38,551 bases of DNA from Thermincola carboxydiphila (GTDB lineage: Bacteria; Bacillota; Thermincolia; Thermincolales; UBA2595): contig JAENZJ010000030.1 of NCBI GenBank assembly GCA_016841325.1, positions 1 to 38,551 of the forward strand, given 5' to 3'. Within the stretch, counting starts at the first letter, position 1, and each line of letters begins with the position of its first letter. The notes below the pieces were generated by a model, which worked only from the letters and a program-made list of their open reading frames with translations, was not told where the DNA came from and ran no database searches. Below, one piece after another: positions 5,027 through 38,551 of this stretch. The position numbers and the translations under genes are program-made.

Positions 5027-5092
5027 ATTCCTGCCGAAGCGGGCGCAAAGGCGAGAGCCGGGAGCGCTTCATTTCAGCACACTGTCGCCGTA

Positions 5093-5146
5093 TTGACAAT
5101 AGCAATTTATTTGGCTAAGATTATAGAATAGTACAGATGTCTATAT
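5093..5146 (+). promoter_or_regulatory. Promoter and operator O3 of the GntR gene
   Basis: TTGACA (5093-5098), a 17-bp spacer and TAAGAT (5116-5121) form a good housekeeping promoter. GTACAGATGTCTATAT at 5131-5146 matches 14 of 16 bases of operators O1 and O2 and sits 10 nt past the -10 box, the same distance as O1 from P1. This points to autorepression by the GntR protein, perhaps with weaker binding because two bases differ. Confidence 0.78.
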
Positions 5147-5159
5147 AAGGCTGGTTATT

Positions 5160-5927: not shown

Positions 5928-5946
5928 AGTTAAGGTGGGTAACGGA

Positions 5947-6576
5947 ATGAACCAGGATTTGATTAATGCCATAACGGAACTTGATGAAGACAAAGCGCTT
6001 GAATTGGTGCGGGAAAAAATAAACAAAGGGGAATCACCTCTGGAGATTGTGGAACAGTGCCGGCTGGGTGTGGAAAAGGTTGGGAAACGATATCATGATC
6101 AGACTTATTATTTATCAGACCTGATCATGTCAGAAGAGATCCTCAGGAGTGTCATGGAAATACTGGAACCCCATTTTTCTGAGATCAGGACCCAAAATAG
6201 TGTCAAAATCGTCATTGGTACCATCGAAGATGATATCCATGACCTGGGAAAAAACATCATAATCAGCTTACTGCGGTCTGAGGGCTTTGAAGTATATGAC
6301 CTTGGAGTGGACGTCAGGCCGGAACAGTTCATTGAGAAGATAACTGAGACAGGGGCAGCCATAGTCGGCGTTTCAGTTGTCCTGACCTTCTCCATAAATT
6401 ATGTAAAAAAACTGGTCAGGTTAATCGAGGAAGCCGGTTTGCGGGATGACCTGAAGATAATTATAGGTGGTTATCCCGTTGATGAAATGATCAGGGAATA
6501 TACCGGGGCTGATTACTTCGAAAATGATGCCAAAAGGGCAGTGAAACTGATAAAACAAATTGCCGGCCTGGCATAA
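5947..6576 (+). CDS. Corrinoid protein 2 (B12-binding)
   Basis: This 209-residue protein is a paralogue of corrinoid protein 1, with the same cap domain (VEKVGKRYHDQTYYLSDLIMSEEI) and cobalamin domain. It keeps the full signature DDIHDLGKNII, SVVLT and GGYPVDE, so it should bind cobamide with a His ligand. I chose ATG 5947, after AAGGTGG and 19 nt past the GntR stop; the same frame is open further upstream but overlaps the GntR gene. It shares a transcript with the regulator rather than with the methyltransferases, so it may serve another methyltransferase encoded elsewhere. Confidence 0.92.
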   Translation: MNQDLINAITELDEDKALELVREKINKGESPLEIVEQCRLGVEKVGKRYHDQTYYLSDLIMSEEILRSVMEILEPHFSEIRTQNSVKIVIGTIEDDIHDLGKNIIISLLRSEGFEVYDLGVDVRPEQFIEKITETGAAIVGVSVVLTFSINYVKKLVRLIEEAGLRDDLKIIIGGYPVDEMIREYTGADYFENDAKRAVKLIKQIAGLA

Positions 6577-6635
6577 AAACGAATTTAACAAGTAATATTA
6601 ACAGCAGCATTAATGAATTGGGCAGGTGGCATATT

Positions 6636-7295
6636 ATGAAGACAGTGGCTATTGCATGCAATACTTTGAAAGACGAAGTGATGATGACTGCAAACGAACT
6701 GGAAGTTGCTTATCCGATTCTGTGGATTGAGTCCGGACTGCACCAGACCCCGCAAAAGCTCAATCATGGTATCCAGAGGCAGATTGACAATATCAGTAAT
6801 GTCGATAATATTGTCCTGCTGTTTGGGAGCTGTGGCAATTCTCTGCTTGGATTAAAGTCACGTGAAGCCCGGATTATTTTTCCCCGGGTAGATGATTGTA
6901 TCTCCATGTTCCTGGGCGGCAATGAGCGCAAAAAGGAGTGGGAAAGCCAGGGACACTCCTATTACCTGACCAAAGGCTACCTGGAGAATGAGGCCAATAT
7001 CTGGACTGACTATACCTACAGCCTGGCCAGGTATGGTGAAGACAGGGCCCGGAAGCTGATGCGGGTGATGTTAAAGCATTACGACAGGCTCAGGGTGATT
7101 GAAACAGGCGCCTATGATTTGGATCCCTTTATTGATGAAACCCGGGATATTGCAGCCAAACTGGAACTTGACCATGAGGTGGTCAAAGGCTCTCTGGATA
7201 TTTTATATAAGGCACTCCGGGGAGACTGGGACCGGGATTTTGTCATTATTAATCCGGGAGAAACGGTTGAATATGCTCATTTGGGGATTTGTTAA
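6636..7295 (+). CDS. DUF1638-family protein
   Basis: The 219-residue soluble protein matches the DUF1638 family, with the typical opening MKTVAIACNTLKDE, then LFGSCGNSLLGL, PRVDDCISMFLG and a late NPGET. The conserved Cys residues (CG and DDC) suggest a metal or cofactor site. The family's biochemical role is not settled to my knowledge, but its genes recur beside corrinoid methyltransferases, as here. ATG 6636 follows an AGGTGG site; an in-frame TTG at 6618 is less likely. A GC-rich hairpin follows the stop. Confidence 0.85.
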   Translation: MKTVAIACNTLKDEVMMTANELEVAYPILWIESGLHQTPQKLNHGIQRQIDNISNVDNIVLLFGSCGNSLLGLKSREARIIFPRVDDCISMFLGGNERKKEWESQGHSYYLTKGYLENEANIWTDYTYSLARYGEDRARKLMRVMLKHYDRLRVIETGAYDLDPFIDETRDIAAKLELDHEVVKGSLDILYKALRGDWDRDFVIINPGETVEYAHLGIC

Positions 7296-10224: not shown

Positions 10225-10252
10225 TTGGGTAACCTTGGGGGGAATTCACTTT

Positions 10253-13200
10253 ATGCCGGTTTCACCTGCAATACGATCATCAGAAAAAGCAAATAAACGC
10301 AATAACTTTTTAATAGCAACAATACTTATAACAATAGCGGTATTGCTGGGAATGACGATATGGAAGATTATTCCTGCAGAGGCTGTCAGGAAAACTGTCT
10401 GGCAGACCCCTGCTACTGCTGCTGTTTATGCAGTAGCAGCTGATGACATCGATGGTGATAATGTCAGGGAAGTGGTCTACGGAGGGCAGGACAGCAAGCT
10501 TTATGTGAGGAAATACATTCACTCCACCAGGTTAACGGAGCCTTACCAGACTTTTGGCATCACTGCGGGAATGTCACCTGAGATAATTAAGCTGCGGGAC
10601 CTTGACGGGGACGGAAACCAGGAAATAATAGTGGCCGGTCCGGACAGCAACCGGGTTGAGGCCTATACCTTTTTTAATAACACCCTTGCACAACTCTTCA
10701 GTGTTCCTGTCAGCGGTAATGTGTTGGACCTGGCAGTCGGTCAGCTGACTGATGCCAATGGCAATACCGGCATCGATGTGGCTGCACTTACTTCTGCAAA
10801 TAAAGTAGAACTGGTGTACAACGATTCGGGCACCTGGACCACGGGCTACACCGCCAATACCGTAAACGAGCCTAAGAGGGTTGAAGCATTTGTATATGAT
10901 GGCTTACAGGATGCGGTGGTGGTAACCACCGTTTATGGTGTAAGGACCTTTTTCTTTGACGGTGCGGATAATCCGCCTCCGGTCTGGGAAGTAAACGGGG
11001 TTGTCAACGGGACAGATACATATAATGTGTTTGCCCCCCTGGCCGTTTCCGGTGATATAGTAAACAGCTCCAACAGCAACGGCACTGACGGGGTACCGGA
11101 AATAGTTGTCGGTACCCAGGACCTGAAGGCAGGGAAGAGCGATATTGTGGTCACCCTGAACGGCAGGACCGGGGCTGAAGTCTGGAAAAGTACCGGTGGC
11201 AGGATCCTGGGGCGTATCAATGATATCAAGGTCCAGGCGGTCGGGGGCACTCAGCCTGATAAGAAGTTTATTGCCGTAGGTACCGGAGCGGCCCGTGATT
11301 CCGGAGGCAACCCGGTTGACGGGCAGTATGTACTGCTGTTTCAGGTTGACGGTTCGGGTCTGAATAACCCTAATTTTAAGCAGGGCACCGGGAGCACCTG
11401 GCGGGGTTACCTGGCCCCGGCCGGAGAAGTGCTGGCAGTTTACCAGGGTTACATCGACCATTCGTTAAACAATTCATCAGATACCAACATTATTGTGATC
11501 ACCGGGGATAAGACGGACGGGACCCAGGAAAACAGGGTTGTCAAGTTATGGTATACCGGAAGTGACAACACGCTTAACTACGATACATTTAATGATGTAA
11601 ATAACTATTATCAGCTAAACAAAGATGCTTCCTATACCTGGTCACCCCGGAGCACCTATTTGATTGACAGTGCTGCCATTAATCCACAGGATAACTGGCG
11701 GGATGTGGTGTTTACCCGGCCCGGGACAGGCGGGGCAGAAGTGCTCAGTTTTGACTACAAGGCCCCGGCTATTACTTCATACCCCACTGTTTCGCCTGAT
11801 CCGGTTGTTAACCCATGGAACAATAATGTCACCATATCGGTATCTGCCAGCGAGGGGTGTTATGTTAAAGTCGAAATCTTAAGAGGCAGTAATGGTTCCG
11901 TATTTGCCACACTGGGTCCCAGGGTAGCAGATTTCAACGGTACCAGCGCTGAAACCAGCCTCGTTTGGGATGGTACCGACGGTGCCGGGAACAGGTACAC
12001 TGAGACGACATATAAAATTAAGGTTTGGGTTTATGACAATGAAACCCAGTTTGACGGTAACAGCCCGCTAACCCTGCCCTATGAGACACAGGCAAGGTCG
12101 TATGCCACTTATCCCGGTTCATACAGTTATTATACCGTAAGCTATGACTCTACTAATCCGGAACTGACCCTGGAATTCTTTAAAGATGTTAACCGGACTA
12201 TACCTCTCAGCGTTTACAACGGCAATCCCATTACCCGGTCCGGCGCTCCGGTTTATCTTAAGATAACCGCTTCTGAATACCTGGCACCGGAGACGGTGTT
12301 CTATACAGTTTATGATGTGCACCCCCAGGTCCGGACAAGTCCCGGGACAACAGATAACTTTACTTTTAATGGAGTCTGGAACCTTGAACTGCCTGCTGAG
12401 GACGGAATTGCCCGGATTGAGATCGAAGGAAAGGACAATGGAGGGAATCCCGGAAACATAACCCGGGAGGTTATAGTAGATAATAGTGTCACTCAGCCAA
12501 TAGTAACAGCATCTGACAATTTAAACGGAAAGGTTACTCTCAGTATTTCAGGTATAGACCCGGACCACAAATATGTCAGGATATACCGCGGTACGGTAAG
12601 TGGTTTCACTCCTAATGAATACTCTCTCCTGGCGAGCTTTACCGATTTTTCGGCAAAATCTTATGTAGATAAAAACGTTCAGCCTGACCAGATTTATTAT
12701 TACCGGGTCCAGCAGGAGGACCACGTTGAAAACAAAGCCTTTTCAGGCGAGGTTTCCGGAAAGGCGCTGCCGGGACTGACCTTTACTCTGGATTACTATA
12801 CAGACCCCGGATGGACCCAGCTGCTGTCCAAAAACCCGGATGGCAGGTATGTAACAAACCTGAGGTCACCTATCTACATTAAATTTACCGCCAGCAACCC
12901 CCTGGTGGCTGCGCCATCATACATAGTTGATGCACCTGGCAGCACAGCAAATGATATTACTGAACCGGTGACCGCCTCCTGGGTCAGCGGGCAGGTTTAC
13001 CAGGGGGTATGGGGAGTTACTGTACCGGGCAATGACGGCCCTGCCAGTGTAAAGGTTACGGCAGCAGATATTTTCGGGCAGTCCCTGGTTAATAACGTGC
13101 CGGCAGCGGGCGGCACTGTGATCGTGGACACGACTGCTGCGGCGCCGCACCTCTGGGCTGAGCCGGGCCCTGCCAGTGTTAACCTGAAGTGGACCAGGGA

Positions 13201-15964
13201 AAGTGATGTCAAAAACACAAAAATATACCGCAGTACTAACCAGGATTTTGTTCCCACTGATTCGGGAATCGGGACTAATCTGATTACAACTGTTTCCGGG
13301 ACCGTTTATCATGACTCTGGCCTTGATCCTGAACAGACATATTATTACAAGGTTGTTGCTGTTGACTGTGCCGGCAATGTTTCGCCGCCGTCTGACAGGG
13401 CTTCAGTACAGCCGGAGTTCTCGGAACCTCATCCGGCTCCGGTAATTGTCAGGGCTGATCCCACCAGTAAGCAGATAATTTATATTGTTTTTGACGAACC
13501 GGTGGTGATCAGGAGCAACCCTGCCGACTGGACGGTAACCCAGAATGTATACGGGACACCGCCTGAGGTAGCTTCTGCAGAGGTTACTGACGACCGGCGG
13601 GTCATCAGGGTAGTCCTCAGTGGGGAACAGGGAACAGGAAACCAGCTGACCCCGCTGACATATACCCTGAACCTGACCGGTATTGAGGATGATTACGGGA
13701 CCCCCCTTCCCGAAGATAATGTGACCAATCAGGTATCATGGGAGGCCTTTACCCCTCACGGGAAGTTCTCCCAGTGGTCCGGGGGGACTGTCCCTGCCGG
13801 GTCCTCGACAGTACTTTGCGGCCTCTGCCACAGCGCCCATAACGCTTCTGGCAGTTCACTGCTTCCTGATACCACCATTAAAAAGGTCTGCTTCATCTGT
13901 CACAGTATAACCGGTTCCAGTGCCCTGAAGGTTGAAGGTGAATTTGTTTCCCGGAGTGTGTATGGTATGCCTTATTCCTTTACTCTCCATAAGTCCCTGG
14001 ACAGTGATGACCCCGGATATGACGTGCTCTCGTGTGTTGACTGCCACAACCCTCATGGTGACGTACAGGACAAAAACACTGATAACACCATATATCCAAA
14101 GCTGCTGCGGGTTGCTGATGCAGATGGTAACAAATACTATCAGGGTAACCAGGTTTGTTTGGCATGCCATGGCAATGTGGACCGCAGTTTTGAAGATGGG
14201 ACATATTATGCCAACACCGGAGGGAATCATATTAATCCTGTTGACCCTGATAATATCAATGCATCAAATACCACCGGCCCTGTCCATTATGATAATGTCA
14301 ATTTTGGTGATTTTCTTAATCCCGATTCCGGGACTCAGATAACATGTATGAAATGCCATGAAAAACACGGCTCCCGGTATGAGAGTCTTCTGGATGACAG
14401 CCTTGCCGGCAGTGAGGAAGCCCTCTGCTTCAAATCAGGCTGCCATGGGCCGGAAAATCCCGCCAAAAATATTTATGACCGGTTTTTCGGTACGGGCAAA
14501 GTTTCCCGGCATGACATCGGCGGCACCGGCGGCAAGGGCAGGGTCGAATGTACCAACTGCCACGGCCCGCATACTGTTGACAATACCCTTACTGCAACTA
14601 CCGGCAAGATCAGTGACCCGGACAATACCAAGCTGGCATATCTGGGTGGGCCGGAAAATAACTTCTGCCTAAAGTGTCATGATGGCGGCCCGCCCCAAAA
14701 AACCAGGACTGAGACTGCGGTTGTTCCATATACGGTCAGTTTTGACAAAGACATCACCACCAATGGTTCCGGATGGGATAAATCATGGTTCACCAATACA
14801 GGGCACTATACCCAGTCTGGCTTCCAGACACCCCGGCGCTGCAGGGGGTGTCATACCTGGCATGGGTCCCAGTATTTATCCCTGATGAATGAACCAATTG
14901 ACCGTGATTTTAATTACAGTTTCAATTCCAGCAACAGCCCCTACTGTCTGGGGTTATGCCACCGGGCATCAATAGGCAACTCCTATGTGGAAACTGAAAT
15001 TAAAACTGTATTTAATCCCGCTAACTCCCCATACCGGCATCCTACCTTTGATGTTAACGGGGTCCATGATAATACAGAAGACCTGGCTGCTAAAAATGTG
15101 ACCAGGCATGCCGAGTGTTCTGACTGCCATGATGTCCACACAGCAAAGGCTGATGGTTCTGAACAGGGCCTTTTGGGACAGGTGACCGGGCTTGACATCA
15201 CATGGAGCGGGACTCCGTGGGAATCTTTCAGCGATGCGGAGCTGGTACCGCTGAATCCCGGTGATGAGCAGTACCGACTGTGTCTCAAGTGCCACAGCCC
15301 TTATTCCTATAATTCGCCTCCGGTAACACCGTCGTCTGTGGGGTCGTGGCAGGGTTCTTTTGACCAGACTGATATCGCCATGGAATTCAATCCCGATAAT
15401 CCTGCTTTCCATGCAGTAATCGGAGAGAGTAAAGTACCGACTTTCGTATATAATGACGATACTTACTATTATGGAAAGTTTGCCGGTTCATGGACGGCGG
15501 ATGCGGAAATGAAGTGTACTGACTGCCACAGCTACCCGGGCCGGAGGGGGCCCCACGGTTCCCCCAACAGGTTTGTACTTAAAGGCCGATGGGATAATAC
15601 TACCGGAACAAGCGGGACATCCGGTCATCTCTGCTTCTATTGTCATGACTATGACTTTTATACAGGAGCAGACCCTGGCACTGAGACAGTCAGATCCCAG
15701 TTTTCCAGGGTAGGAAACTATAACCTGCACAACAGCTCCGGCGGTTCCCACGGGAGCGCCGGCTGTGTGCAGTGCCATGGGGCGGTCCCCCATGGCTGGA
15801 ATAAAGACGACAGCGGGACAGGAGGTCTGTCCCTGGTTACCTCCGCTGACCCGGCGCCCTATAGTGACGGGGTGGGAATTACGTCAATCAACACTGTAAA
15901 CACCACCCCTGGTGACTGGAAAGGCCATGGTGCCCAGTGGTCATGCGTAAAAAGCTGTCACTAA
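10253..15964 (+). CDS. Giant multiheme cytochrome c with beta-propeller, Ig and FN3 domains
   Basis: This 1903-residue exported protein has an N-terminal hydrophobic segment (about 20-42, ending PAEA), probably a signal peptide or anchor. Residues about 45-430 hold FG-GAP/VCBS-like propeller repeats (DIDGDNVREV, DLDGDGNQEI, DGVPEIVVG). A FlgD-like Ig domain follows near 500-620, then at least two fibronectin III-like units (around 745 and 960) and another Ig-like unit. From about 1189 come 13 CxxCH motifs plus three atypical ones: CFKSGCH (CX4CH), CLGLCH and CVKSCH (CX3CH). The last one ends the protein. Such architecture fits a wall- or surface-exposed electron carrier for extracellular electron transfer in Gram-positive metal reducers. 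ATG 10253 follows GGGGGGAA; an in-frame TTG at 10235 lies before that site. No cytochrome maturation genes lie next to it. Confidence 0.93.
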   Translation: MPVSPAIRSSEKANKRNNFLIATILITIAVLLGMTIWKIIPAEAVRKTVWQTPATAAVYAVAADDIDGDNVREVVYGGQDSKLYVRKYIHSTRLTEPYQTFGITAGMSPEIIKLRDLDGDGNQEIIVAGPDSNRVEAYTFFNNTLAQLFSVPVSGNVLDLAVGQLTDANGNTGIDVAALTSANKVELVYNDSGTWTTGYTANTVNEPKRVEAFVYDGLQDAVVVTTVYGVRTFFFDGADNPPPVWEVNGVVNGTDTYNVFAPLAVSGDIVNSSNSNGTDGVPEIVVGTQDLKAGKSDIVVTLNGRTGAEVWKSTGGRILGRINDIKVQAVGGTQPDKKFIAVGTGAARDSGGNPVDGQYVLLFQVDGSGLNNPNFKQGTGSTWRGYLAPAGEVLAVYQGYIDHSLNNSSDTNIIVITGDKTDGTQENRVVKLWYTGSDNTLNYDTFNDVNNYYQLNKDASYTWSPRSTYLIDSAAINPQDNWRDVVFTRPGTGGAEVLSFDYKAPAITSYPTVSPDPVVNPWNNNVTISVSASEGCYVKVEILRGSNGSVFATLGPRVADFNGTSAETSLVWDGTDGAGNRYTETTYKIKVWVYDNETQFDGNSPLTLPYETQARSYATYPGSYSYYTVSYDSTNPELTLEFFKDVNRTIPLSVYNGNPITRSGAPVYLKITASEYLAPETVFYTVYDVHPQVRTSPGTTDNFTFNGVWNLELPAEDGIARIEIEGKDNGGNPGNITREVIVDNSVTQPIVTASDNLNGKVTLSISGIDPDHKYVRIYRGTVSGFTPNEYSLLASFTDFSAKSYVDKNVQPDQIYYYRVQQEDHVENKAFSGEVSGKALPGLTFTLDYYTDPGWTQLLSKNPDGRYVTNLRSPIYIKFTASNPLVAAPSYIVDAPGSTANDITEPVTASWVSGQVYQGVWGVTVPGNDGPASVKVTAADIFGQSLVNNVPAAGGTVIVDTTAAAPHLWAEPGPASVNLKWTRESDVKNTKIYRSTNQDFVPTDSGIGTNLITTVSGTVYHDSGLDPEQTYYYKVVAVDCAGNVSPPSDRASVQPEFSEPHPAPVIVRADPTSKQIIYIVFDEPVVIRSNPADWTVTQNVYGTPPEVASAEVTDDRRVIRVVLSGEQGTGNQLTPLTYTLNLTGIEDDYGTPLPEDNVTNQVSWEAFTPHGKFSQWSGGTVPAGSSTVLCGLCHSAHNASGSSLLPDTTIKKVCFICHSITGSSALKVEGEFVSRSVYGMPYSFTLHKSLDSDDPGYDVLSCVDCHNPHGDVQDKNTDNTIYPKLLRVADADGNKYYQGNQVCLACHGNVDRSFEDGTYYANTGGNHINPVDPDNINASNTTGPVHYDNVNFGDFLNPDSGTQITCMKCHEKHGSRYESLLDDSLAGSEEALCFKSGCHGPENPAKNIYDRFFGTGKVSRHDIGGTGGKGRVECTNCHGPHTVDNTLTATTGKISDPDNTKLAYLGGPENNFCLKCHDGGPPQKTRTETAVVPYTVSFDKDITTNGSGWDKSWFTNTGHYTQSGFQTPRRCRGCHTWHGSQYLSLMNEPIDRDFNYSFNSSNSPYCLGLCHRASIGNSYVETEIKTVFNPANSPYRHPTFDVNGVHDNTEDLAAKNVTRHAECSDCHDVHTAKADGSEQGLLGQVTGLDITWSGTPWESFSDAELVPLNPGDEQYRLCLKCHSPYSYNSPPVTPSSVGSWQGSFDQTDIAMEFNPDNPAFHAVIGESKVPTFVYNDDTYYYGKFAGSWTADAEMKCTDCHSYPGRRGPHGSPNRFVLKGRWDNTTGTSGTSGHLCFYCHDYDFYTGADPGTETVRSQFSRVGNYNLHNSSGGSHGSAGCVQCHGAVPHGWNKDDSGTGGLSLVTSADPAPYSDGVGITSINTVNTTPGDWKGHGAQWSCVKSCH

Positions 15965-20448: not shown

Positions 20449-21105
20449 ATGCACGGTGAAGGGATATTCGCTTATGGCTTGTGGAGCCTGGTAGTAATAA
20501 ATGTTGCCTTGTTTGTTTTCTTTATCGTAAGCTTCCTGTTACCGTTCAGAAAGCGGGAATGGCGTTCCATGGGAGTTACGGTTGCGTTTTTTACTGCACT
20601 GTTCACTGAGATGTATGGATTTCCTCTGACAATTTACTTATTGACTGGTATTCTTGGAGCCAGGTACCCGGTCCTGGATCCTTTTTCACATGCCCATGGA
20701 CATTTATGGGTGGTCTTATTTGGCGGTGGTGCCACCATGCTGAATATCATACATCTGGTAAGCAACGGTCTGGTGATTACGGGTTTCATCATCATGTGGA
20801 GAGGGTGGAAGATGATTCATTCGGCACAGGATATGCTCGTTACAACCGGAATATATTCATATGTCAGGCATCCGCAATATTCAGGTCTTTTTATGGTGAT
20901 TACTGCAATGTTGATTCAATGGCCGTCAATTATGGCCCTGGTTATGGCTCCAATACTGGTGATTGTTTATTATCGGCTTTCCAGGAAAGAGGAGCAGGAT
21001 GTGACAGAGAAATTCGGTGATGAGTACAGACAGTATATGAGAAGAACCCCCATGTTTGTCCCGCGTCTCCGGCGAAGCCAAGAGTCACAAGCTTCAGCCG
21101 GATAA
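20449..21105 (+). CDS. Isoprenylcysteine/phospholipid methyltransferase-family membrane protein
   Basis: The 218-residue protein has about five membrane helices and the ICMT/PEMT C-terminal signature: GIYSYVRHPQYSGLF, then RKEEQDVTEKFGDEYRQYMRRTPMFVP. Such enzymes methylate lipids or membrane-bound small molecules with SAM; the bacterial substrate is unknown. ATG 20449 follows AAAGGGTGGG. It lies 109 nt after the His-rich gene, a pairing seen in metal-resistance regions, and just before the UbiB-like gene. Confidence 0.88.
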   Translation: MHGEGIFAYGLWSLVVINVALFVFFIVSFLLPFRKREWRSMGVTVAFFTALFTEMYGFPLTIYLLTGILGARYPVLDPFSHAHGHLWVVLFGGGATMLNIIHLVSNGLVITGFIIMWRGWKMIHSAQDMLVTTGIYSYVRHPQYSGLFMVITAMLIQWPSIMALVMAPILVIVYYRLSRKEEQDVTEKFGDEYRQYMRRTPMFVPRLRRSQESQASAG

Positions 21106-29746: not shown

Positions 29747-29792
29747 CTATGGTCTGGTCAATATTGACCCGCCGGTTCACTCCAGACCATAG
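29747..29792. repeat. Nested palindromes over the glpC stop codon
   Basis: CTATGGTCTGG (29747-29757) and CCAGACCATAG (29782-29792) are exact inverted repeats. Just inside lies the perfect 14-bp palindrome GGTCAATATTGACC (29756-29769). The element spans the end of glpC. No T-run follows on the minus strand, so it is either an mRNA 3'-end stabiliser or a protein site. Confidence 0.6.
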
Positions 29793-30985
29793 GCCTGCAT
29801 CAGCACCCATACAGGATGAAACGTCTCTGTACCTGACCCGTGGCGAATCTGAACCTGGCACCCTCCACATTCGGTGATTACCGATTGAAATTCATCATTG
29901 GCAACACCATGCCGGACCCGCTCAAATACCGGGTTTCCAATCTGCATGGCTGTATCGTATTTTTCTTTCTTAAAACCATAACTCCCGGATAATCCGCAGC
30001 ATCCCTGGTCAAGGTCGGTCACCCGGACTCCCGGAATCAACCGCAACAGGCGGACCGACGGGGTCCCGATGCCCTGGGCCTTTAGATGGCAGGAGCTATG
30101 GTATCCCAGGGATACCTGAACCTCTTTAAAATCTGTTCTGAATTCACTTTGCTCATGAAGCGCCCAAAGAAACTCGAACAAATCATAAGCTTGCAGCTCA
30201 GATGCTGATACGTCCAATCCCGCATATTCCTTTAATGCTGTACCGCAACTGGTGCACCCTGTGATTAACGGTACCCCGGCACGAATATATGGGTTCATCA
30301 GTGCCAGGTTTTTTTTGGCGGTTTCCTTAGCCTCGCGTACATAGCCATTTCCTTCAAGAGGGGTGCTGCAACAGTGAAAGGGAGGAACAATCACTTCATA
30401 ACCATTGTGTTCCAACACCTTTGTGATGGCGTGACCTGTGGGTGGGTCATTATATGTAACAAAACAGCCGGGGAAATACACTACCTGTTTTCTGTTTTTG
30501 TGCCCTTCTCCAAATGGGTTAAACTTTTTACGGTAAGTGGGGAGCGGCGCTTCACTGGAAATACCCAGCGCTTGTTCCAGGACCTGCCGGAACAGCGGCG
30601 TCCTGAGTAGAGTATTGGTCAAGCCGGGAAGAATAGTCGCCAGTTTGCCCAGATATTCAGCCCGCCCAAACAGGTAATCCCGGATGTTGGACTGCAGGTT
30701 TTTTCCGCTCCCGGACAGTTTCGCATTTTCCTGAGCCCTTGTAATCATTTCAGTGATTTTAACCCCTGACGGGCAGGTTATTTCACATGTTCTACATTTG
30801 GAACAATAATTCAACAATGCTGCTCCAATTTGTAAACCTTCGAGCCGAAAACGCTCGGCATCCGGCCCCAGGACTTTCGGTCCCGGGAACAGAGGGTTCA
30901 CTGCAGCCACCGGGCACATGGCTGTACAGGCACTGCACTTGATACAGGCATCCAGATTCTCTGTCCTGTCCTGCTCATAAATCAT
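29777..30985 (-). CDS. glpC: Anaerobic glycerol-3-phosphate dehydrogenase subunit C
   Basis: The 402-residue Fe-S protein carries two [4Fe-4S] ferredoxin motifs near the N-terminus (CIKCSACTAMCP and CSKCRTCEITCP). Two CCG domains follow (FPGCFVTYND...HCCSTPLEGNG with TGCTSCG; SSCHLKAQG...GCCGLSGSYG with TECGGC). GlpC anchors the GlpAB dehydrogenase and passes electrons to menaquinone. ATG 30985 follows AAAGGTGG by 8 nt; an in-frame GTG at 30997 overlaps that site. It is third in the order glpA-glpB-glpC but lies 115 nt from glpB, with two hairpins in between. Confidence 0.94.
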   Translation of the reverse strand: MIYEQDRTENLDACIKCSACTAMCPVAAVNPLFPGPKVLGPDAERFRLEGLQIGAALLNYCSKCRTCEITCPSGVKITEMITRAQENAKLSGSGKNLQSNIRDYLFGRAEYLGKLATILPGLTNTLLRTPLFRQVLEQALGISSEAPLPTYRKKFNPFGEGHKNRKQVVYFPGCFVTYNDPPTGHAITKVLEHNGYEVIVPPFHCCSTPLEGNGYVREAKETAKKNLALMNPYIRAGVPLITGCTSCGTALKEYAGLDVSASELQAYDLFEFLWALHEQSEFRTDFKEVQVSLGYHSSCHLKAQGIGTPSVRLLRLIPGVRVTDLDQGCCGLSGSYGFKKEKYDTAMQIGNPVFERVRHGVANDEFQSVITECGGCQVQIRHGSGTETFHPVWVLMQAYGLE

Positions 30986-31005
30986 CACTAATGCCACCTT
31001 TCTAG

Positions 31006-31100: not shown

Positions 31101-32291
31101 TTAAAGCTGATTTCCCGCAAACCAACCCGTAGCCAGAGAAACGCCTCCGCCACAGGTTTCTGTCCATGGGTCCCAATGAGCCAGCATCCTCCCGATAACC
31201 CGGAGGTTCTTAAAAAGGACTTCCTTGCCACCCGGGCCGACAGGCCGCAGTTCCCGGTCAGCTTCGATGCCAATGCGGGCATAGGGTTGTTCACCCAAAA
31301 ACTCGCTATTTGTCCACTGTGCCGGAACATAGAGGGGGAGGCCCAATACTGTTTCCTGTGCGGTATCTGCCGTTGCCTCAATCCCGCCGCCAAAGATTCC
31401 TCCGGTGGCCAGGATAAAGGAGTCTGCGGAAAAAGCCGTGGGTCTGCCTTTGCTCCTGACAATGGCTCTACTGCATACTTTATTATGGCTCTCAATGCTC
31501 TGGACCCCGGTCCCTGTCAGCAATTCTCCGCCCAGTGATTTAAACTTTTGCTTCAGGGCTGAGTAAAGATTATGCCCACAGGCAGAAGGCGGAAATGAGG
31601 TCATTTCTATTACGGGAAAAGGTGTTCCGGCCAAAACTTCTTTCAGGGGTTCACAAAACGCTGCTGCCAGGCCGGGAAAAAGGATAACCGTTTCGCCGGA
31701 TGTCTGGGGCAGAGAGTCCAGCAGCCTTTTTAACTCAGAAACTCCGGGCTGCGACTGCCAATATTTTGTATAATCCATTCCTGTTACCGGCTTGCCAATG
31801 GTGTGCCAGGATTCGAATGTACCGGTGCGGAACGGAAATATTTCCACCTCGCATTGTGGATAGGCTTTTAATAAATTGGTTTTGATAATTTCCGGGAAAA
31901 AGTCTTTGAGTCCGTATGGGGCCATCAGTATAATCACTTTTGCATTCTTCAGGGGTTCTGTGTTGTGACTGCGGGGTACTATGCCGGCTTTTCTTGGAGC
32001 GCCTAACGGTGTCAATATCTCCTGAAATTCTGACCACGACCCCCGGTAGTCCGGAAAGAGATTTTGAAACCATTCCATTCCGGCATGTACCACAGTTTCT
32101 CCAAGTAAGGCGTAAGGGTGGTCTTCATGGCTTAGGAGCTGCCCGACATCCCCGAAATCCAGGGCGCCTGAACTGTAAGTGAGGCTCCCTGCCCCTTCGG
32201 AAATAATCAGGATTTGTTTGCCCCTTTCCGCAGCCCGGATACCTGCCGTGAGGCCCGCCAAACCTCCGCCGATTATAATCCCATCCCACAT
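31101..32291 (-). CDS. glpB: Anaerobic glycerol-3-phosphate dehydrogenase subunit B
   Basis: The 396-residue flavoprotein opens with the dinucleotide-binding motif MWDGIIIGGGLAGLTAGIRA and contains a late FAD/Gly motif (SFILATGGIFGGGIEA) followed by a glpB-like C-terminus (GGGVSLATGWFAGNQL). It forms the catalytic dimer with GlpA and hands electrons to GlpC. ATG 32291 follows AAGGAGG. The frame is open another 33 codons upstream into glpA, but that part has no family match. The gap to glpA is 23 nt. Confidence 0.92.
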   Translation of the reverse strand: MWDGIIIGGGLAGLTAGIRAAERGKQILIISEGAGSLTYSSGALDFGDVGQLLSHEDHPYALLGETVVHAGMEWFQNLFPDYRGSWSEFQEILTPLGAPRKAGIVPRSHNTEPLKNAKVIILMAPYGLKDFFPEIIKTNLLKAYPQCEVEIFPFRTGTFESWHTIGKPVTGMDYTKYWQSQPGVSELKRLLDSLPQTSGETVILFPGLAAAFCEPLKEVLAGTPFPVIEMTSFPPSACGHNLYSALKQKFKSLGGELLTGTGVQSIESHNKVCSRAIVRSKGRPTAFSADSFILATGGIFGGGIEATADTAQETVLGLPLYVPAQWTNSEFLGEQPYARIGIEADRELRPVGPGGKEVLFKNLRVIGRMLAHWDPWTETCGGGVSLATGWFAGNQL

Positions 32292-32314
32292 GGTAAGTTC
32301 CTCCTTGCATGTCC

Positions 32315-33925
32315 TCAGTTTTCTGTAAATTGCAATATACCGGAATATATTGCGCGCGTTAACTCTGTTTCGCGCAGCTGCTGCCCCCACAGGACAGGTC
32401 TGATCCCTTTCCAGCGTTGATTCAGGAAGTTCCTCAATTCTTCATCAAGGGAATCATATTTTTCTTTTTTCTGCCATAACAGGGGCAGCGCCCTGTATGT
32501 GCAGAAGGCTCCCTGGCAGGTTCCCATACCCAGCCGCGTTTTTCTGCGGATATCTGCCAGATGGTGAGTATCTTCGTCGGATGCTGCTTTTTCAACCTCA
32601 GCCATACTTACCATTTCACATTCACAGAGCATCTGTCCCTTATGGGGGGTCTGCTCAATCTCTTTCAGGACGTCTTCGGCATCTTCCTGAAGCCGTTCCA
32701 GCATTTTTTCCACAGGGGCATAAGGCAGCAGCCGGGCTGCTTTTTTATATACGTGTTCCGGAATTTCAGGCAGCAGGTCTTCCTCAGCCGTATGGCAGGG
32801 GGTTGTGTTACCAAGTTTTTCGGCTACCCTGTCGGATACCTTTTCAGCCATCAGGCGATATGTGGTAAATTTACCTCCGACAATGCTTATAAGCCCCTTG
32901 ATACCATCCTGGAGCTCGTGGTCTATCAGGGCGAAGGAGCGGCTGACATTTCGCCCCTCCTCCTTAACTCCGGGGACATCGTGGTCCTCCCGGTGGAGTG
33001 GTCTGATGCCGGAAAAGGCCCGGATTATGCGGTTTTTCATTATCCCTGGCAGCAATTGTTCACCTATCTCCAAAAGACTTCTGACTTCTTCCTGCTGGGG
33101 ATCGTTATCTTCCGGAGAATCCACGAATTGTGATGTAGTACCCAAAATAGTTATGGTTTCATGAGGGACAAAGATATCCCCGTCACCTGAGGGACGCAGG
33201 CGATTGACCACACGGTGAAAAAGCCGCTGGTTAAAGGCCAGCAGTGTCCCCTTATCACAGATAACATCCAACGGAATTCCGATGGACCCCGCAAGCTGAG
33301 AGGCCCAGGCTCCGGCAGCGTTAACCACAATATCACAGTGCACTGTAAACTGGTGCCCATTCAGGAGGTTCCTGACTGCCACACCGGTAACCTGGCCTTT
33401 ATCCGTGACAAGTCGTTCTGCCTGGTGATATGTCCTGAATTCTCCATTATAATGCCTTGCGGATCTGGCATTGGCCCACACAATCCTAAAACCGTCAACG
33501 GTAGCATCAGGTACTTCAAAAACCCGGAGCACATTTTTGTCCATCAATGGTTCCTTCCGGCATGCTTCAGAAATTGAAACTTCACGTATCGGAATATGTG
33601 CACCGGCACAGGATTTAATCCATTCCTCAACATAACCGGGTGAATCATCTTTTGTTTGGACAAACCAGCCTCCGGTGTCAGAAATACAGTGAGGAGCAAT
33701 TTTCTTTAAAATCAGGTTTTCATCAATACATTCAGCCGCTGACTGAGGGTCTTTTACCGCATAACGTCCGCCACTGTGCAGTAATCCGTGAAAACGTGAA
33801 CTGGTTCCGTGGGCAAGGTCTCCCTGTTCCAGCAGCAAAGCCGAAATACCTCTCATACTCAGGTCGCGCAGGATGCCAACCCCGGTTGCGCCTCCCCCGA
33901 CTATCACTACCTGATAGTCTTTCAT
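32315..33925 (-). CDS. glpA: Anaerobic glycerol-3-phosphate dehydrogenase subunit A
   Basis: The 536-residue FAD enzyme oxidises sn-glycerol 3-phosphate to dihydroxyacetone phosphate. Signatures are VVIVGGGATGVGILRDLSMRG, GTSSRFHGLLHSGGRYAV, GIRPLHRED and a C-terminal BFD-like [2Fe-2S] region with CECEMVS and GTCQGAFC. Length fits GlpA rather than the shorter aerobic GlpD. ATG follows GGGAGGAACG. It leads the glpABC cluster, and a GlpP-type terminator lies in its leader at 34012-34051. No glpK or glpF is present in this window. Confidence 0.95.
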   Translation of the reverse strand: MKDYQVVIVGGGATGVGILRDLSMRGISALLLEQGDLAHGTSSRFHGLLHSGGRYAVKDPQSAAECIDENLILKKIAPHCISDTGGWFVQTKDDSPGYVEEWIKSCAGAHIPIREVSISEACRKEPLMDKNVLRVFEVPDATVDGFRIVWANARSARHYNGEFRTYHQAERLVTDKGQVTGVAVRNLLNGHQFTVHCDIVVNAAGAWASQLAGSIGIPLDVICDKGTLLAFNQRLFHRVVNRLRPSGDGDIFVPHETITILGTTSQFVDSPEDNDPQQEEVRSLLEIGEQLLPGIMKNRIIRAFSGIRPLHREDHDVPGVKEEGRNVSRSFALIDHELQDGIKGLISIVGGKFTTYRLMAEKVSDRVAEKLGNTTPCHTAEEDLLPEIPEHVYKKAARLLPYAPVEKMLERLQEDAEDVLKEIEQTPHKGQMLCECEMVSMAEVEKAASDEDTHHLADIRRKTRLGMGTCQGAFCTYRALPLLWQKKEKYDSLDEELRNFLNQRWKGIRPVLWGQQLRETELTRAIYSGILQFTEN

Positions 33926-34129: not shown

Positions 34130-34726
34130 TTATGTCAAATGCAGGTTCCACAAGTTCCTGCGGCTTGTTGTAACAGCCGACAGCCCGTTATCAAGCGCCT
34201 TGTGGACATCCTCTTCCGTGCGGAGCAATCCGCCTCCCAAAATACTTAATGCTGTTGCTTTATGTAATTCATCAATGGCAAACTTAGGTACGGAAGCCGG
34301 CATAATCTCTATGGCGTCAGGGGATGTTTGCTTAATAACCTTCAGGCCGGTGCGGATGGACTCCGAATCAACCAGAAACAGACGCTGGACGGTAATCATA
34401 TTGTTTTCATTGCCGTAACGCAGCAGCTGCCATTTTACAGAAACAATCCCATCGAAACCCCATCGCTTCAGGTAGCGGATACCCGGACTGTCTTTACCGA
34501 TCCCGTTTATCAAATCAATATGGGCCAATAAAAATTTGTCCGGATTTTTGCGGCGGACCTTTAATATTTCTTCCAGGTCGTTAATATCACCACCGACCAA
34601 AATAGCAACTGCTACCCAGGGAATGCCCAGTACCTCTCTGAGGTCCTCAGGATGTTTGACAGCCGGCACAATTCGGCTATTTTTTAAAGCATCATTGAAT
34701 TTTGTCGTGTTCTTCAAAGCAACCAT
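34130..34726 (-). CDS. glpP: Glycerol-3-phosphate responsive antiterminator GlpP
   Basis: The 198-residue protein matches GlpP: a small TIM-barrel-like RNA-binding regulator with VPAVKHPEDL, LVGGDINDLEEIL, LAHIDLINGIGKDSPGIRYL, GIVSVKWQLLRYGNE, LFLVDSESI, IEIMPA and GGGLLRTEEDV. It senses glycerol 3-phosphate and lets polymerase read through leader terminators. ATG 34726 follows a GGAG site. The glpA leader hairpin lies just downstream, so one gene controls the next. Its own promoter is at 34825-34853 on the minus strand. Confidence 0.95.
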   Translation of the reverse strand: MVALKNTTKFNDALKNSRIVPAVKHPEDLREVLGIPWVAVAILVGGDINDLEEILKVRRKNPDKFLLAHIDLINGIGKDSPGIRYLKRWGFDGIVSVKWQLLRYGNENNMITVQRLFLVDSESIRTGLKVIKQTSPDAIEIMPASVPKFAIDELHKATALSILGGGLLRTEEDVHKALDNGLSAVTTSRRNLWNLHLT

Positions 34727-34856: not shown

Positions 34857-34885
34857 TTGACAGATTTTGTTTTAAGTAGTATACT
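34857..34885 (+). promoter_or_regulatory. Promoter of the SorC-family regulator gene
   Basis: TTGACA (34857-34862), a 17-bp spacer and TATACT (34880-34885) are close to consensus. Two palindromes directly downstream would cover the transcription start. Confidence 0.75.
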
Positions 34886-34898
34886 TATGCACAGAAGG

Positions 34899-34932
34899 TG
34901 TGCAATTGCACAAAAGTGTGCAAATGCACACT
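34899..34932. promoter_or_regulatory. Tandem operators for the SorC-family regulator
   Basis: TGTGCAATTGCACA (34899-34912, perfect palindrome) and AGTGTGCAAATGCACACT (34915-34932, 8-bp arms around AA) share the half-site TGTGCA. Their centres are 18 bp apart. They sit between the -10 box and the start codon, as expected for autorepression by a tetramer such as a SorC/CggR protein. Confidence 0.8.
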
Positions 34933-34964
34933 TTGGCAGACCGAATTAAAGATAGTGTTGGTGA

Positions 34965-35894
34965 TTGGAAGTGGATTATTTATTAAAGGTTGCCAGGTTA
35001 TATTACCAGGAAAACATGAATCAGCAGGAAATTGCGGAATACCTCAATATTTCCCGGGTCAAGGTTTATAGATTATTAATGAAGGCCCGGGAACAGGGAA
35101 TTGTCAAAATTGAGTTACATGCTCCCGCTCAGGACTTCAGTGAACTCGAAATAAGGATAGAAAAGAGTTTTGGAATAAAGCAGTGTATCATTGTTCCCAC
35201 ATCAGATTCCATAGACATTGTATATAACGGATTTGCAAATGCACTGGCCAAAATTATTGACAGGGACTATAAAGACGGGATGAGCATAGGAGTTGGATGG
35301 GGGCAGACTATCAAGGGCACCGTGGAAAGAATCACTTTCAATAAGAAGTATAATATGAAAGTGTTTCCGGTAATTGGCGGCTCGGGTCTGGTTTATGACA
35401 GTGATGATATCCACGCAAATTCAATTGTCTCTTTACTCGCCGGCAAATTAGGCGCAGCCGGGTACATTCTTAATTGTCCTGCCATCATCGATTCTCAGGC
35501 CAGTAAGGAAGTCTTCTTAAAGGAAAGTATTATCAGGACCATTGTTGATCAGTTTGATAAATTGGATTTGGTGATTGTGCCCATTGGATACATTGGTCCC
35601 GATATCACGATTTACAAAACAAGAGATATTATGGCTGAAGATATCGAATACCTCAGCAAATTAAATGTTGTCGGTGATATCAATTCCAATTTCATTGATG
35701 CCAATGGAAACCTGGTACCAAACAGGATTCAGGACCGGATCATAAACGTTACTCTGGAAACGCTGAAAGAAACAAAAAATACTGTAGCCATCTGTAATGG
35801 CGCCAAGAAGATCGATGCCACCAGGGCTGCACTGAAGACGGGTGTAATTAACACACTTATCACTGATACCAGTATTGCAGAAAAATTACTTTAA
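34965..35894 (+). CDS. SorC/DeoR-type sugar-binding transcriptional regulator
   Basis: The 309-residue protein has an N-terminal HTH (VARLYYQENMNQQEIAEYLNISRVKVYRLL) and a C-terminal SorC sugar-phosphate-binding domain (GIKQCIIVPT, GMSIGVGWGQTI, VFPVIGGSG, then AICNGAKKIDATRAALKTGVINTLITD). Such proteins sense a phosphorylated sugar or polyol. The start is TTG 34965, with GTG 34971 as an alternative. It precedes the FGGY kinase gene, whose product could be its ligand, and is divergent from glpP. Confidence 0.92.
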   Translation: MEVDYLLKVARLYYQENMNQQEIAEYLNISRVKVYRLLMKAREQGIVKIELHAPAQDFSELEIRIEKSFGIKQCIIVPTSDSIDIVYNGFANALAKIIDRDYKDGMSIGVGWGQTIKGTVERITFNKKYNMKVFPVIGGSGLVYDSDDIHANSIVSLLAGKLGAAGYILNCPAIIDSQASKEVFLKESIIRTIVDQFDKLDLVIVPIGYIGPDITIYKTRDIMAEDIEYLSKLNVVGDINSNFIDANGNLVPNRIQDRIINVTLETLKETKNTVAICNGAKKIDATRAALKTGVINTLITDTSIAEKLL

Positions 35895-35917
35895 ACGTTC
35901 TACAGGGGGTCAAAAAA

Positions 35918-36001
35918 TTGAACATGGTATCTCGCGATAATGTAAGTCATTTTAACCGCGGCACTTTTTGTAAGGGATGGGTTGTAACCACTAAACCATG
36001 A
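35918..36001 (+). CDS. Possible 27-aa peptide between regulator and kinase
   Basis: TTG 35918 follows an AGGGGG site by 8 nt and opens 27 codons ending in GTFCKGWVVTTKP. Nothing but its ribosome binding site and position supports it; it may be a leader peptide or chance. Confidence 0.2.
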   Translation: MNMVSRDNVSHFNRGTFCKGWVVTTKP

Positions 36002-36074
36002 TACCCAAACAGGGTCCGGGGTTATTATTTATGCAAATGAAAAGAATCACAAACATTAAAAGGAGGTTTTCTGA

Positions 36075-37628
36075 TTGAGTGGGCATTTAACATTGGGAAT
36101 CGACATCGGGACAACAAACGTCAAAGCCTGTATTCTTGACACCAATACAGGTAAAGTAATTGCTTCAGGTTTTCAGCCACACCCATTATTCATCCCGAAA
36201 CCCGGTTATGCTGAGCAGGAAGGGGACAACTACTGGCAGGCAGTGGTATCTGCAATTAAGCAGTGTCTGGAGCAGGGCGTTTCCCCGGATGATATAGCTG
36301 CAGTCGGTCTGTCCGGCTTGGTCGGGGTTACCCTGCCGATCAGTCGGGAAGGCAGACCCGTAAGGCCCGGAATGATTTGGATGGATGCCAGGTCAGAGGC
36401 TGAGTGCCAGGAGATTCGCGAAAGAGTTGGAGAAGATAAGATTAATTACAATAACGGGAACAGGATCGCCCCCTGGTTTATTGAACCCAAAGCCCTCTGG
36501 ATGAAAAAACATGAACCTGAGCTTTTCGAAAAAACCTACAAATTCTTATCTCCCGCCGGTTATTGTACATACAGGTTGTCAGGAGAATTTACCATCAACA
36601 CCGGGGATGCAGGATTATTTTACCCGTATGACTATCAAAATGAGAGATGGAATCCCGAAATAGCTGAAGGTATCGGTATTCCCATGGATAAGTACCCCAC
36701 GATTTACCGGTCTCACGAGGTTGTTGGAGAAGTGACGGCTGAGGCTGCAGCTGAAACAGGGCTTAAACAGGGAACCAAAGTTGTTGCCGGTGGAACAGAT
36801 ATCAGTTCAGCAGCACTGGGCAGCGGAGTTACAATTGCCGGACAAGCCTTTTATTCCATGGGGACAGGCTCTAACATCGGTATCATGATTCCGACTGAAC
36901 AGAGGGTGGAAGAATACAGGATATTAAAATGGCCGCACGTTTTGCCGGGTTTGACCATGTTTGATGCACCAATGGCCTTTACAGGCGCTTCCCTTAAGTG
37001 GTTTGCGGATAATTTTGGTGCCAATGAAAGGTCAATGGCCAGTCAAACCGGTTTAAACGAGTTTTCCCTGCTGACTATGCAGGCAGAAAAGACAAAGCCC
37101 GGTGCGGACGGTCTTTTGTATCTGCCGTACCTGGGGAACACTTTATCTCCAAACTGGAACTCAACATCCAAAGGTGTATTTTTTGGTGTGACCCTCGCCA
37201 CAACCCGGGCACATATGATCAGGGCTGTGATTGAAGGGGTTGCCTTTGACATTTATTCCAATGTGAAGATTGCCTTAGGTGCAGGAGTAAAAATTGACAA
37301 GCTCATCCTCAACGGAGGTCCCACCAAGAGCCGGTTCTGGAATCAGATAACTGCAAATGTAGTCAATATTCCTCTTGAGACCACCAATATTGATGAAGCT
37401 GCTCCACTGGGAGATGCCATCCTGGCGGCAACCGGAGCGGGTCTTTATAAAAACCCAACTGATCCTCTGAAAGACATTGTTCAGACAACCGGTACAATAG
37501 AGCCTGATCCCAGGATTCATGAGATGTACGAGGAACAATACCATATTTGGCGGAGGGTTTACTATAACCTTCTTAAAGAAATGGAAGACCTTCATCATCT
37601 CCAGTACAAGTACCATGTTAGTAATTAA
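36075..37628 (+). CDS. FGGY-family carbohydrate kinase, xylulokinase-like
   Basis: The 517-residue protein has both FGGY halves: the N-terminal phosphate motif GIDIGTTNVKACILD, GLSGLVGVTLPI with WMDARSEAE, and the C-terminal GVAFDIYSNVKIA, LNGGPTKSRFWNQITANV and DEAAPLGDAILAATGAG. It phosphorylates a sugar or polyol with ATP. The opening differs from glycerol kinase, so it does not replace the missing glpK. The start is TTG after AGGAGGT. Between a SorC regulator and a UroD-like methyltransferase, its substrate may be a methylated sugar or polyol; that is speculation. Confidence 0.92.
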   Translation: MSGHLTLGIDIGTTNVKACILDTNTGKVIASGFQPHPLFIPKPGYAEQEGDNYWQAVVSAIKQCLEQGVSPDDIAAVGLSGLVGVTLPISREGRPVRPGMIWMDARSEAECQEIRERVGEDKINYNNGNRIAPWFIEPKALWMKKHEPELFEKTYKFLSPAGYCTYRLSGEFTINTGDAGLFYPYDYQNERWNPEIAEGIGIPMDKYPTIYRSHEVVGEVTAEAAAETGLKQGTKVVAGGTDISSAALGSGVTIAGQAFYSMGTGSNIGIMIPTEQRVEEYRILKWPHVLPGLTMFDAPMAFTGASLKWFADNFGANERSMASQTGLNEFSLLTMQAEKTKPGADGLLYLPYLGNTLSPNWNSTSKGVFFGVTLATTRAHMIRAVIEGVAFDIYSNVKIALGAGVKIDKLILNGGPTKSRFWNQITANVVNIPLETTNIDEAAPLGDAILAATGAGLYKNPTDPLKDIVQTTGTIEPDPRIHEMYEEQYHIWRRVYYNLLKEMEDLHHLQYKYHVSN

Positions 37629-37670
37629 CAGCAAATAAAAAAATCGTCTTTTATGCGGAGGACAATAAAA

Positions 37671-38551
37671 ATGAATTCCAAAGAGAGAGTCTTAATGTCA
37701 CTTAATCACCAGGAACCGGACAGGTGCCCGATAAACTTCCGGGCAACTGATGCCGTTGTAAATATGGTGTGCAACCATTATAAAAAGGACTACTATGGAT
37801 TACTTGACCACCTTAATGTTGATTTTCGGGAGGTTTTTCCCGATTATGTGGGTCCGGAGTTTAAAAAACTGGATGACGGGACTCAGCTTGATATGTGGGG
37901 GGTAGGACGCCAGGAGTTAATTACCGAAATCAGCCGTGATGTCTATGTCAACTATTCCCCGTTAGGTTCGGCGGAAACTGTTGAAGAAATCAGGAATTAT
38001 GACTGGCCCTCAGCTGACCTGTTTGATTTCAGCCAAATGGAAAAAAAGTGTGACCAGTTTAAGGGCTATGCAATTTCAACCCCGGGAATTCACGCCGAAG
38101 GGTATCATGGTGTGTTCCATTTACTGACATATTTGTTTGGCATGGAAAAAGCCATGCTGGACCTGGCGTTAAACGAAGAAATGGTAATGGAAGCCATAAA
38201 GCACATAACCAAATTCCAGGTTGATTATTATGAAAGAATGTTTGAACATGCCAATGGAAAGATTGACTTCATCTTCTATAAAGATGATTTTGGTTCCCAA
38301 AACAGCCAGTTAATAAGCCGGGAAATGTTTTTGCAGTTTTTCGCACCAAGTATGAAACAAATAATTGACCTGGCCGACAGTTATGGCGCGGCATTTATTC
38401 TGCATTCATGCGGCAGTGTCATCAACCTGATTCCGGATTTCATTGATTTGGGAGTTAAAGTGCTGGACCCGATACAGACTTCGGCGAAGGACATGGATAT
38501 TAACGTAATAAAGGAAAGATTCGGCGATAAACTAGCCTTTCATGGGGCTAT
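37671..38551 (+). CDS. UroD-superfamily methyltransferase, partial (right edge)
   Basis: ATG 37671, after GGAGG, opens a frame that runs off the window after 293 codons. It reads MNSKERVLMSLNHQEPDRCP, the usual opening of MtaA/CmuA-type proteins, and later has FIFYKDDFGSQNSQLISREMF and the zinc motif HSCGSV (HxC), followed by LDPIQTSAKDMD. The start lies 42 nt after the FGGY kinase stop, so the two are one operon. The end and any corrinoid protein partner are outside the window. Confidence 0.9.
   Translation, partial: MNSKERVLMSLNHQEPDRCPINFRATDAVVNMVCNHYKKDYYGLLDHLNVDFREVFPDYVGPEFKKLDDGTQLDMWGVGRQELITEISRDVYVNYSPLGSAETVEEIRNYDWPSADLFDFSQMEKKCDQFKGYAISTPGIHAEGYHGVFHLLTYLFGMEKAMLDLALNEEMVMEAIKHITKFQVDYYERMFEHANGKIDFIFYKDDFGSQNSQLISREMFLQFFAPSMKQIIDLADSYGAAFILHSCGSVINLIPDFIDLGVKVLDPIQTSAKDMDINVIKERFGDKLAFHGA

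Follow-up and report, generated by a model that had tools for sequence, protein, structure and literature searches.

A gene module at the right end of contig JAENZJ010000030.1 of Thermincola carboxydiphila (GCA_016841325.1) probably belongs to a single transcription unit that would support growth on an O-methylated polyol or sugar by coupling import, corrinoid-dependent O-demethylation and phosphorylation. The window that we analyzed spans contig C22 (38551 bp) from end to end, and the module consists of a SorC regulator, an FGGY kinase and a UroD-like methyltransferase, here called UroD1. A preliminary description of this DNA had joined these genes into one module and suggested that it serves the use of an O-methylated sugar or polyol through demethylation and phosphorylation. 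All three genes are confirmed on the forward strand, and their order is kept in relatives. The suggested use gains support, at the level of sequence, from a putative methyltransferase-corrinoid protein-methyltransferase set, an adjoining importer, the recurrence of the arrangement, and oxygenase clusters in aerobes. The module genes are listed here by position.

34965..35894, forward strand: SorC/DeoR-type sugar-phosphate-responsive regulator (Pfam Sugar-bind PF04198, 9.7e-58; 84-86% identity in the relatives L016 and L017)
36075..37628, forward strand: FGGY carbohydrate kinase (FGGY_N 6e-55, FGGY_C 2e-30)
37653..38551, forward strand, with the 3' end on contig C37 (19606-19421, reverse strand): UroD-superfamily methyltransferase (MT1, UroD1; URO-D 2e-11)

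The UroD gene is cut off because the window is a complete contig. A genome search with the URO-D family located a C-terminal UroD fragment at the end of C37 (19606 bp, read on the reverse strand). The window ends with GGGGCTAT, the reverse strand of C37 begins with GCTATTGACACC, and the two overlap by 5 bp (GCTAT). The join is in frame and adds the missing 60 residues, yielding a UroD1 of 359 residues. It is independently confirmed by the unbroken gene order in two relatives, a Thermincola ferriacetica metagenome-assembled genome (MAG; L016) and HGW-Firmicutes-14 (L017). In both, a single contig carries GlpC-B-A-P divergent from SorC-FGGY-UroD, followed by a periplasmic sugar-binding protein (SBP), permease, ATPase, permease, corrinoid protein and MtrH. 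Identity to these relatives is 84-93% for the module proteins and 72-85% for the glp genes. Both genes predicted to the right of the window, those for a corrinoid protein and for MtrH, are present on C37, together with a sugar ATP-binding cassette (ABC) importer.

C37 19302-17875, reverse strand: SBP of a CUT2 importer
C37 17763-16744, reverse strand: RbsC-type permease
C37 16707-15166, reverse strand: sugar ABC ATPase
C37 15135-14158, reverse strand: second permease
C37 14118-13465, reverse strand: corrinoid protein (PF02607 and PF02310, B12-binding_2 and B12-binding)
C37 13434-12640, reverse strand: MtrH-like MT2, a methyl-tetrahydrofolate (methyl-THF):corrinoid methyltransferase (NF005719, 321 versus 259 bits)

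The corrinoid protein combines helical and B12-binding domains and has the DxHxxG motif (DLHDIG...SALL...GG). With a non-HemE UroD protein as predicted MT1, this two-domain corrinoid protein and a methyl-THF MT2, the operon appears to encode a full set of MT1, corrinoid protein and MT2.

A profile of relatives of UroD1 (METHYLTRANSFERASE) matches MtaA (1e-12) and CdmB (8e-4, 77 residues) in the PDB, and the AlphaFold model of UroD1 (pLDDT 90) has MtaA as first and HemE as second fold match. We rejected a HemE identity, as no HemE occurs among the PDB profile matches and another gene of this genome is HemE-like (465 bits). The aromatic MT1 enzymes of Acetobacterium have the metal motif E-X14-E-X20-H. 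Because this motif is missing from UroD1, we do not file the protein as an aromatic O-demethylase, an identity that its carbohydrate gene context does not support either. Alignment with eight other non-HemE UroD proteins of the same genome predicts a His-Cys-His metal site in UroD1, formed by H251-x-C253 and by His337 at the third position. The third position is Cys in seven of the eight others (His-Cys-Cys), and UroD_b has none of the three ligands. A His-Cys-Cys zinc site marks the S-methyltransferases of the UroD superfamily (SCMT/Mlp) and is altered in the O-methyltransferases (PMC10418091); UroD1 does not have it.

The FGGY kinase is the sole kinase of this family in the window genome and in that of L016. 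Its scores fall below the NCBIfam equivalog cut-offs for both xylulokinase (XylB; 349.7 versus 380.25 bits) and glycerol kinase (GlpK; 164.2 versus 590.35 bits). Its structural model lies nearest to LsrK, the closest fold match, and to xylulokinase, and does not discriminate between them. An Lsr (autoinducer-2) operon, which has a similar architecture, was rejected because the scores are far under the Lsr cut-offs (LsrR, 120.8 versus 486; LsrK, 231.4 versus 528; LsrA, 367.6 versus 586 bits). The SBP weakly resembles many sugar-binding proteins and scores 34.9 bits against the cut-off of 420 for the rhizopine SBP.

To place the kinase, we scanned 84,980 species genomes by peptide patterns, a search by which mid-range relatives may be missed. 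It recovered 26 loci at 62-93% identity, and the next best matches are at 33-34%. The 26 loci form one clade, with a mean column identity of 77% over 16 sampled members and long outgroup branches. Two are from Bacillota, one is from Syntrophobacteraceae (L018), and 23 are from aerobes, namely rhizobia, Caballeronia, Xenophilus, Paracoccus, SAR11 and one actinobacterium of the Microbacteriaceae. The labels aerobe and anaerobe follow taxonomy, and genes in the GC-rich aerobes were called by open frame and homology.

At the aerobic loci, the same kinase and importer (SBP 43-49% identical) adjoin a MocD-like oxygenase of the fatty-acid-desaturase type, a MocE-type Rieske ferredoxin and an HcaD/AndAa-type reductase. 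Outside SAR11, most loci also have a class-III-type alcohol dehydrogenase and an esterase-like hydrolase. The oxygenase is present at 21 of the 23 loci, the ferredoxin at 20, the reductase at 19 and the alcohol dehydrogenase at 14; both loci without the oxygenase are contigs of less than 4.6 kb. UroD and corrinoid protein genes are found at none of the 23. The three anaerobic loci present the reverse picture, with UroD and corrinoid protein in all three, MtrH in two, and the oxygenase set in none, so that the two sets never occur together at one clade locus. None of 54 outgroup FGGY loci has an oxygenase, ferredoxin, reductase, UroD, corrinoid protein or MtrH. These control loci, with the conservation of the pair, lead us to reject a chance adjacency of FGGY and UroD. 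Whole-genome searches agree with the local view: MocD-like proteins occur in 10/10 aerobes and 0/4 anaerobes, and UroD1-like proteins in 3/3 anaerobes and 0/10 aerobes.

The SAR11 loci (L034:15449-16261 and others) have a PanB-like gene of the ketopantoate hydroxymethyltransferase family next to the MocD-like oxygenase, in place of the alcohol dehydrogenase and hydrolase, and L034 contains this pair twice. The PanB-like protein possibly provides a one-carbon (C1) acceptor step.

Oxygenase sets with similar parts are described for O-methylated compounds. MocDEF is the ferredoxin-oxygenase set for rhizopine, 3-O-methyl-scyllo-inosamine (PMC10107442), although the MocE-like ferredoxin of the aerobic relatives falls short of the MocE cut-off (107.7 versus 136.15 bits). 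Clusters for 6-O-methyl-galactose comprise an oxygenase, ferredoxin, reductase, esterase and Zn-alcohol dehydrogenase (PMC10033563). A shared O-methylated substrate would predict what is seen here, two unrelated demethylation machineries around one importer and kinase.

The gene content is consistent with the following route. The CUT2 importer would take up the O-methylated compound, and UroD1, as MT1, would use its ether methyl to methylate the Co(I) center of the corrinoid protein; the MtrH-like MT2 would then hand this group to tetrahydrofolate. Because the genome encodes acetyl-CoA synthase (two CdhC/AcsB copies), the resulting methyl-THF could enter the Wood-Ljungdahl pathway. Phosphorylation of a polyol or ketose by the kinase would come either before demethylation or after it, and SorC would detect a phosphorylated intermediate. 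Substrate candidates are a small O-methyl polyol, or an O-methyl cyclitol or ketose. The linkage of GlpABC and GlpP suggests glycerol 3-phosphate, or a related polyol phosphate, as an intermediate through which some or all of the carbon skeleton is routed.

34130..34726, reverse strand: GlpP-type glycerol-3-phosphate responsive antiterminator (PF04309, 9.7e-50; adjoins SorC also in L016 and L017)
32315..33925, reverse strand: GlpA, anaerobic glycerol-3-phosphate dehydrogenase subunit A (TIGR03377, 687.7 versus 552.8 bits)
31101..32390, reverse strand: GlpB, subunit B of the same enzyme (open frame, start probably near 32288; TIGR03378, 191.5 versus 174.15 bits)
29777..30997, reverse strand: GlpC, subunit C (NCBIfam equivalog, 411.7 versus 278 bits; same position in L016 and L017)

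These genes diverge from SorC-FGGY-UroD, and GlpA, GlpB and GlpC each score above their curated cut-offs. Their close linkage to the module was no part of the preliminary description. Among nine genomes of the family, GlpA occurs in exactly the three with the FGGY kinase and is absent from the other six, one congener included. This co-occurrence, with the sole FGGY kinase, favors glycerol 3-phosphate or a like polyol phosphate as the intermediate. Against such a route, the kinase is not GlpK-like by score, and glp genes do not lie beside the clade kinase outside the family.

The FGGY-UroD pair recurs beyond the window, as orthologs in Thermincolaceae and Syntrophobacteraceae and in nonorthologous form elsewhere. 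HGW-Firmicutes-14 has a second, unrelated operon (L113:11072-18831 and L117:2933-13269), whose UroD is 29% identical to UroD1 and whose FGGY kinase is also at 29%. Its order is UroD-FGGY-TIM-EryC-like-GlpO-like-FAD oxidoreductase-DUF1667-like-SorC-CUT1 importer-RpiB-transaldolase-corrinoid protein-MtrH-DeoC, in which the names RpiB, transaldolase, DeoC and DUF1667 were read off the sequences rather than taken from a family scan. The isomerase set parallels erythritol catabolism (pathway per PMC11508834), and we predict that the operon serves the use of an O-methyl tetritol or similar compound. The UroD type with HxC...H is present in 37/398 sampled genomes of the phylum. An FGGY kinase lies within about 1.5 kb at 5 of 30 fetched loci of this type, HGW-Firmicutes-14 included, and a simple regular expression detects the HxC...H pattern at 18 of the 30. 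A wider view of 18 loci shows sugar ABC genes at about half and corrinoid genes at seven.

Several points weigh against the proposed O-demethylation. UroD1 orthologs with a clade kinase are rare, being confined to one bacterial family and one Syntrophobacteraceae MAG, and the anaerobic module of the kinase clade is found in 3/398 and 1/297 sampled genomes. The MtrH-like MT2 stands beside the module in the three Thermincolaceae genomes and is absent near the Syntrophobacteraceae locus. The C22-C37 join is based on the 5-bp overlap and synteny. As for the aerobic parallel, the O-demethylase role of MocDEF-type sets is a published model whose mechanism has not been solved, and the adjacent alcohol dehydrogenases of the 6-O-methyl-galactose system failed to oxidize formaldehyde in vitro (PMC10033563).

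We weighed three other explanations of the gene content. A special case of the proposed route, possible but on balance unlikely, takes a small O-methyl polyol, for instance O-methylglycerol, as the substrate, which would yield glycerol 3-phosphate and then, by GlpABC, dihydroxyacetone phosphate. It would require no isomerase or aldolase, and it accords with the GlpABC and GlpP genes, which are bona fide by curated cut-offs and adjoin the module in divergent orientation in each of the three Thermincolaceae genomes. The restriction of GlpA to the family genomes with the kinase also fits, but these members are few and related, which makes the co-occurrence weak as statistics. Two of the three genomes have this kinase as their only FGGY member and thus no separate GlpK, yet it scores far under the glycerol kinase cut-off and nearest to xylulokinase. 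Moreover, GlpABC is missing from the Syntrophobacteraceae locus, a GlpA-like neighbor occurs at 1 of the 23 aerobic loci, and our literature search found no abundant natural O-methylglycerol.

The methyl group could instead sit on nitrogen or sulfur, as in an N-methylated amino polyol or a methylthio sugar, so that demethylation and kinase action would proceed with no ether cleavage; we regard this as improbable. Corrinoid systems for such compounds exist, the corrinoid protein scores best with MtgC (betaine) models, albeit below cut-off, and membrane desaturase-like oxygenases also hydroxylate nitrogen-containing substrates, GntB being the best NCBIfam match of the MocD-like protein. The His-Cys-His rather than His-Cys-Cys site of UroD1 and the carbohydrate families of the importer and kinase argue otherwise. 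To our knowledge, N-demethylating MT1 enzymes are of the MttB/MtmB type and not UroD proteins, which also counts against a methylated nitrogen. Least plausibly, the aerobic oxygenase set would hydroxylate an unmethylated polyol and the anaerobic corrinoid set would act on a methyl donor that has nothing to do with the rest of its operon. Both activities are predictions from genes, and a shared neighborhood is no proof of a shared substrate. We nevertheless hold this to be very improbable, as the same kinase and SBP go with one or the other of two chemically different sets, each able to remove a methyl group, at no locus with both, and neither set occurs in the 54 outgroups; the second operon, moreover, again couples an FGGY kinase with UroD, a corrinoid protein and MtrH.

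The preliminary description knew of no described pathway of this makeup, and our literature searches on corrinoid demethylation of sugars, inositols or O-methylglycerol, or on a described SAR11 FGGY cluster, likewise returned nothing on point. The operon does share parts with known systems. Aromatic O-demethylases (MtvABC, OdmABC, VdmABC and MtoABCD) and the chloromethane system CdmBCA also combine a UroD-superfamily MT1, a two-domain corrinoid protein and a methyl-THF MT2 for anaerobic transfer to tetrahydrofolate. The operon studied here differs from them by sugar or polyol import and a kinase under SorC and by another metal motif, and CdmB is only a distant match. It shares a SorC-type regulator, FGGY kinase and CUT2 ABC importer with the lsr operon, to which the methyltransferase genes are an addition. 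The aerobic clusters resemble the rhizopine genes mocDEF in their MocD-like membrane oxygenase, MocE-type Rieske ferredoxin and FAD reductase, and rhizopine is an O-methylated cyclitol. The rhizopine system differs in mocB, mocA, mocC and inositol catabolism, and the description consulted for it includes no FGGY kinase. The demethylation of 6-O-methyl-D-galactose in marine Flavobacteriia likewise groups an oxygenase, ferredoxin, ferredoxin reductase, Zn-alcohol dehydrogenase and esterase around an O-methyl sugar, but it uses a cytochrome P450 and galactose pathways, and no corrinoid version, FGGY kinase or CUT2 importer has been described for it. The second operon of HGW-Firmicutes-14 shares with erythritol (ery) catabolism a kinase, a polyol-phosphate oxidase, an EryC-like protein, TIM-type and RpiB-type isomerases and a transaldolase; it differs by adding UroD, a corrinoid protein and MtrH, and the operon of the window has no isomerases.

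Plants and algae commonly contain O-methyl sugars and cyclitols, whose methyl ether is chemically stable. The corrinoid O-demethylases that we found described act on methoxylated aromatics, with relatives for halo-, N- and S-methyl compounds; an anaerobic route for sugar and polyol methyl ethers, if true, would add to carbon and C1 cycling a branch missing so far. A broader reading, which we judge evenly poised between right and wrong, is that SAR11, an abundant ocean group, shares with rhizobia and subsurface anaerobes the use of an O-methylated polyol or sugar, so far undescribed, as a nutrient. All would use the same importer and FGGY kinase with swappable demethylases, MocDEF-like with oxygen and corrinoid UroD without it, a clean nonhomologous replacement. 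In that same reading, the HxC...H branch of UroD, often encoded beside sugar ABC transporters and FGGY kinases, would form a large class of corrinoid O-demethylases that act on aliphatic carbohydrate ethers, giving a class of substrates to some of the many UroD-family methyltransferases without an assigned function. The compound could be sought in genetically tractable rhizobia or Caballeronia and the answer then applied to SAR11 and the anaerobes.

Within the module, the spacing between FGGY and UroD is 24 bases when the UroD start is taken as 37653. The ATG at 37671 is the more likely start, as GGAGG precedes it and the MNAKERV start of homologs agrees. A near-consensus -35/-10 pair begins exactly at 34857. 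As a class, such promoter-like sites are not in excess, with 6 found versus 5.3 expected from shuffles.

34857..34885, forward strand: promoter-like site TTGACA-17-TATACT 5' of sorC (11/12 consensus matches)

A simple scan detected no leader terminator for GlpP at the glp genes. On the far side of the operon, a MalT-like LuxR regulator (C37 9897-12377) adjoins the MtrH gene in the window strain only. Its place in L016 is taken by a homolog of the window gene at 20449-21105, indicating that the right flank has been rearranged between relatives.

Other UroD genes occur in different settings. L114:8848-9912 encodes an HxC...H UroD that is 36% identical to UroD1, and beside it (L114:4196-7537 and 10545-13686) lie an apparent ROK kinase, a NanE-like epimerase, a glycosidase-like protein and activase-like genes, all named by sequence reading; this is a further sugar-type context for the HxC...H branch. 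A separate corrinoid cluster in the window (1966-7295) comprises an MtrH-like protein, a UroD, two corrinoid proteins, a GntR regulator and a DUF1638 protein; its UroD has FxE for HxC and has lost the third ligand, a metal site unlike that of the sugar-linked UroD. The third methyltransferase set on the contig (25908-28222) pairs a divergent corrinoid protein with an MtaA-type UroD (283 bits versus the methylcobalamin:coenzyme M methyltransferase cut-off of 244) and is adjoined by thioredoxin-like and CcdA-like genes. Finally, positions 10235-15964 encode a protein of 1909 residues with 13 CxxCH heme motifs, a candidate extracellular multiheme cytochrome.

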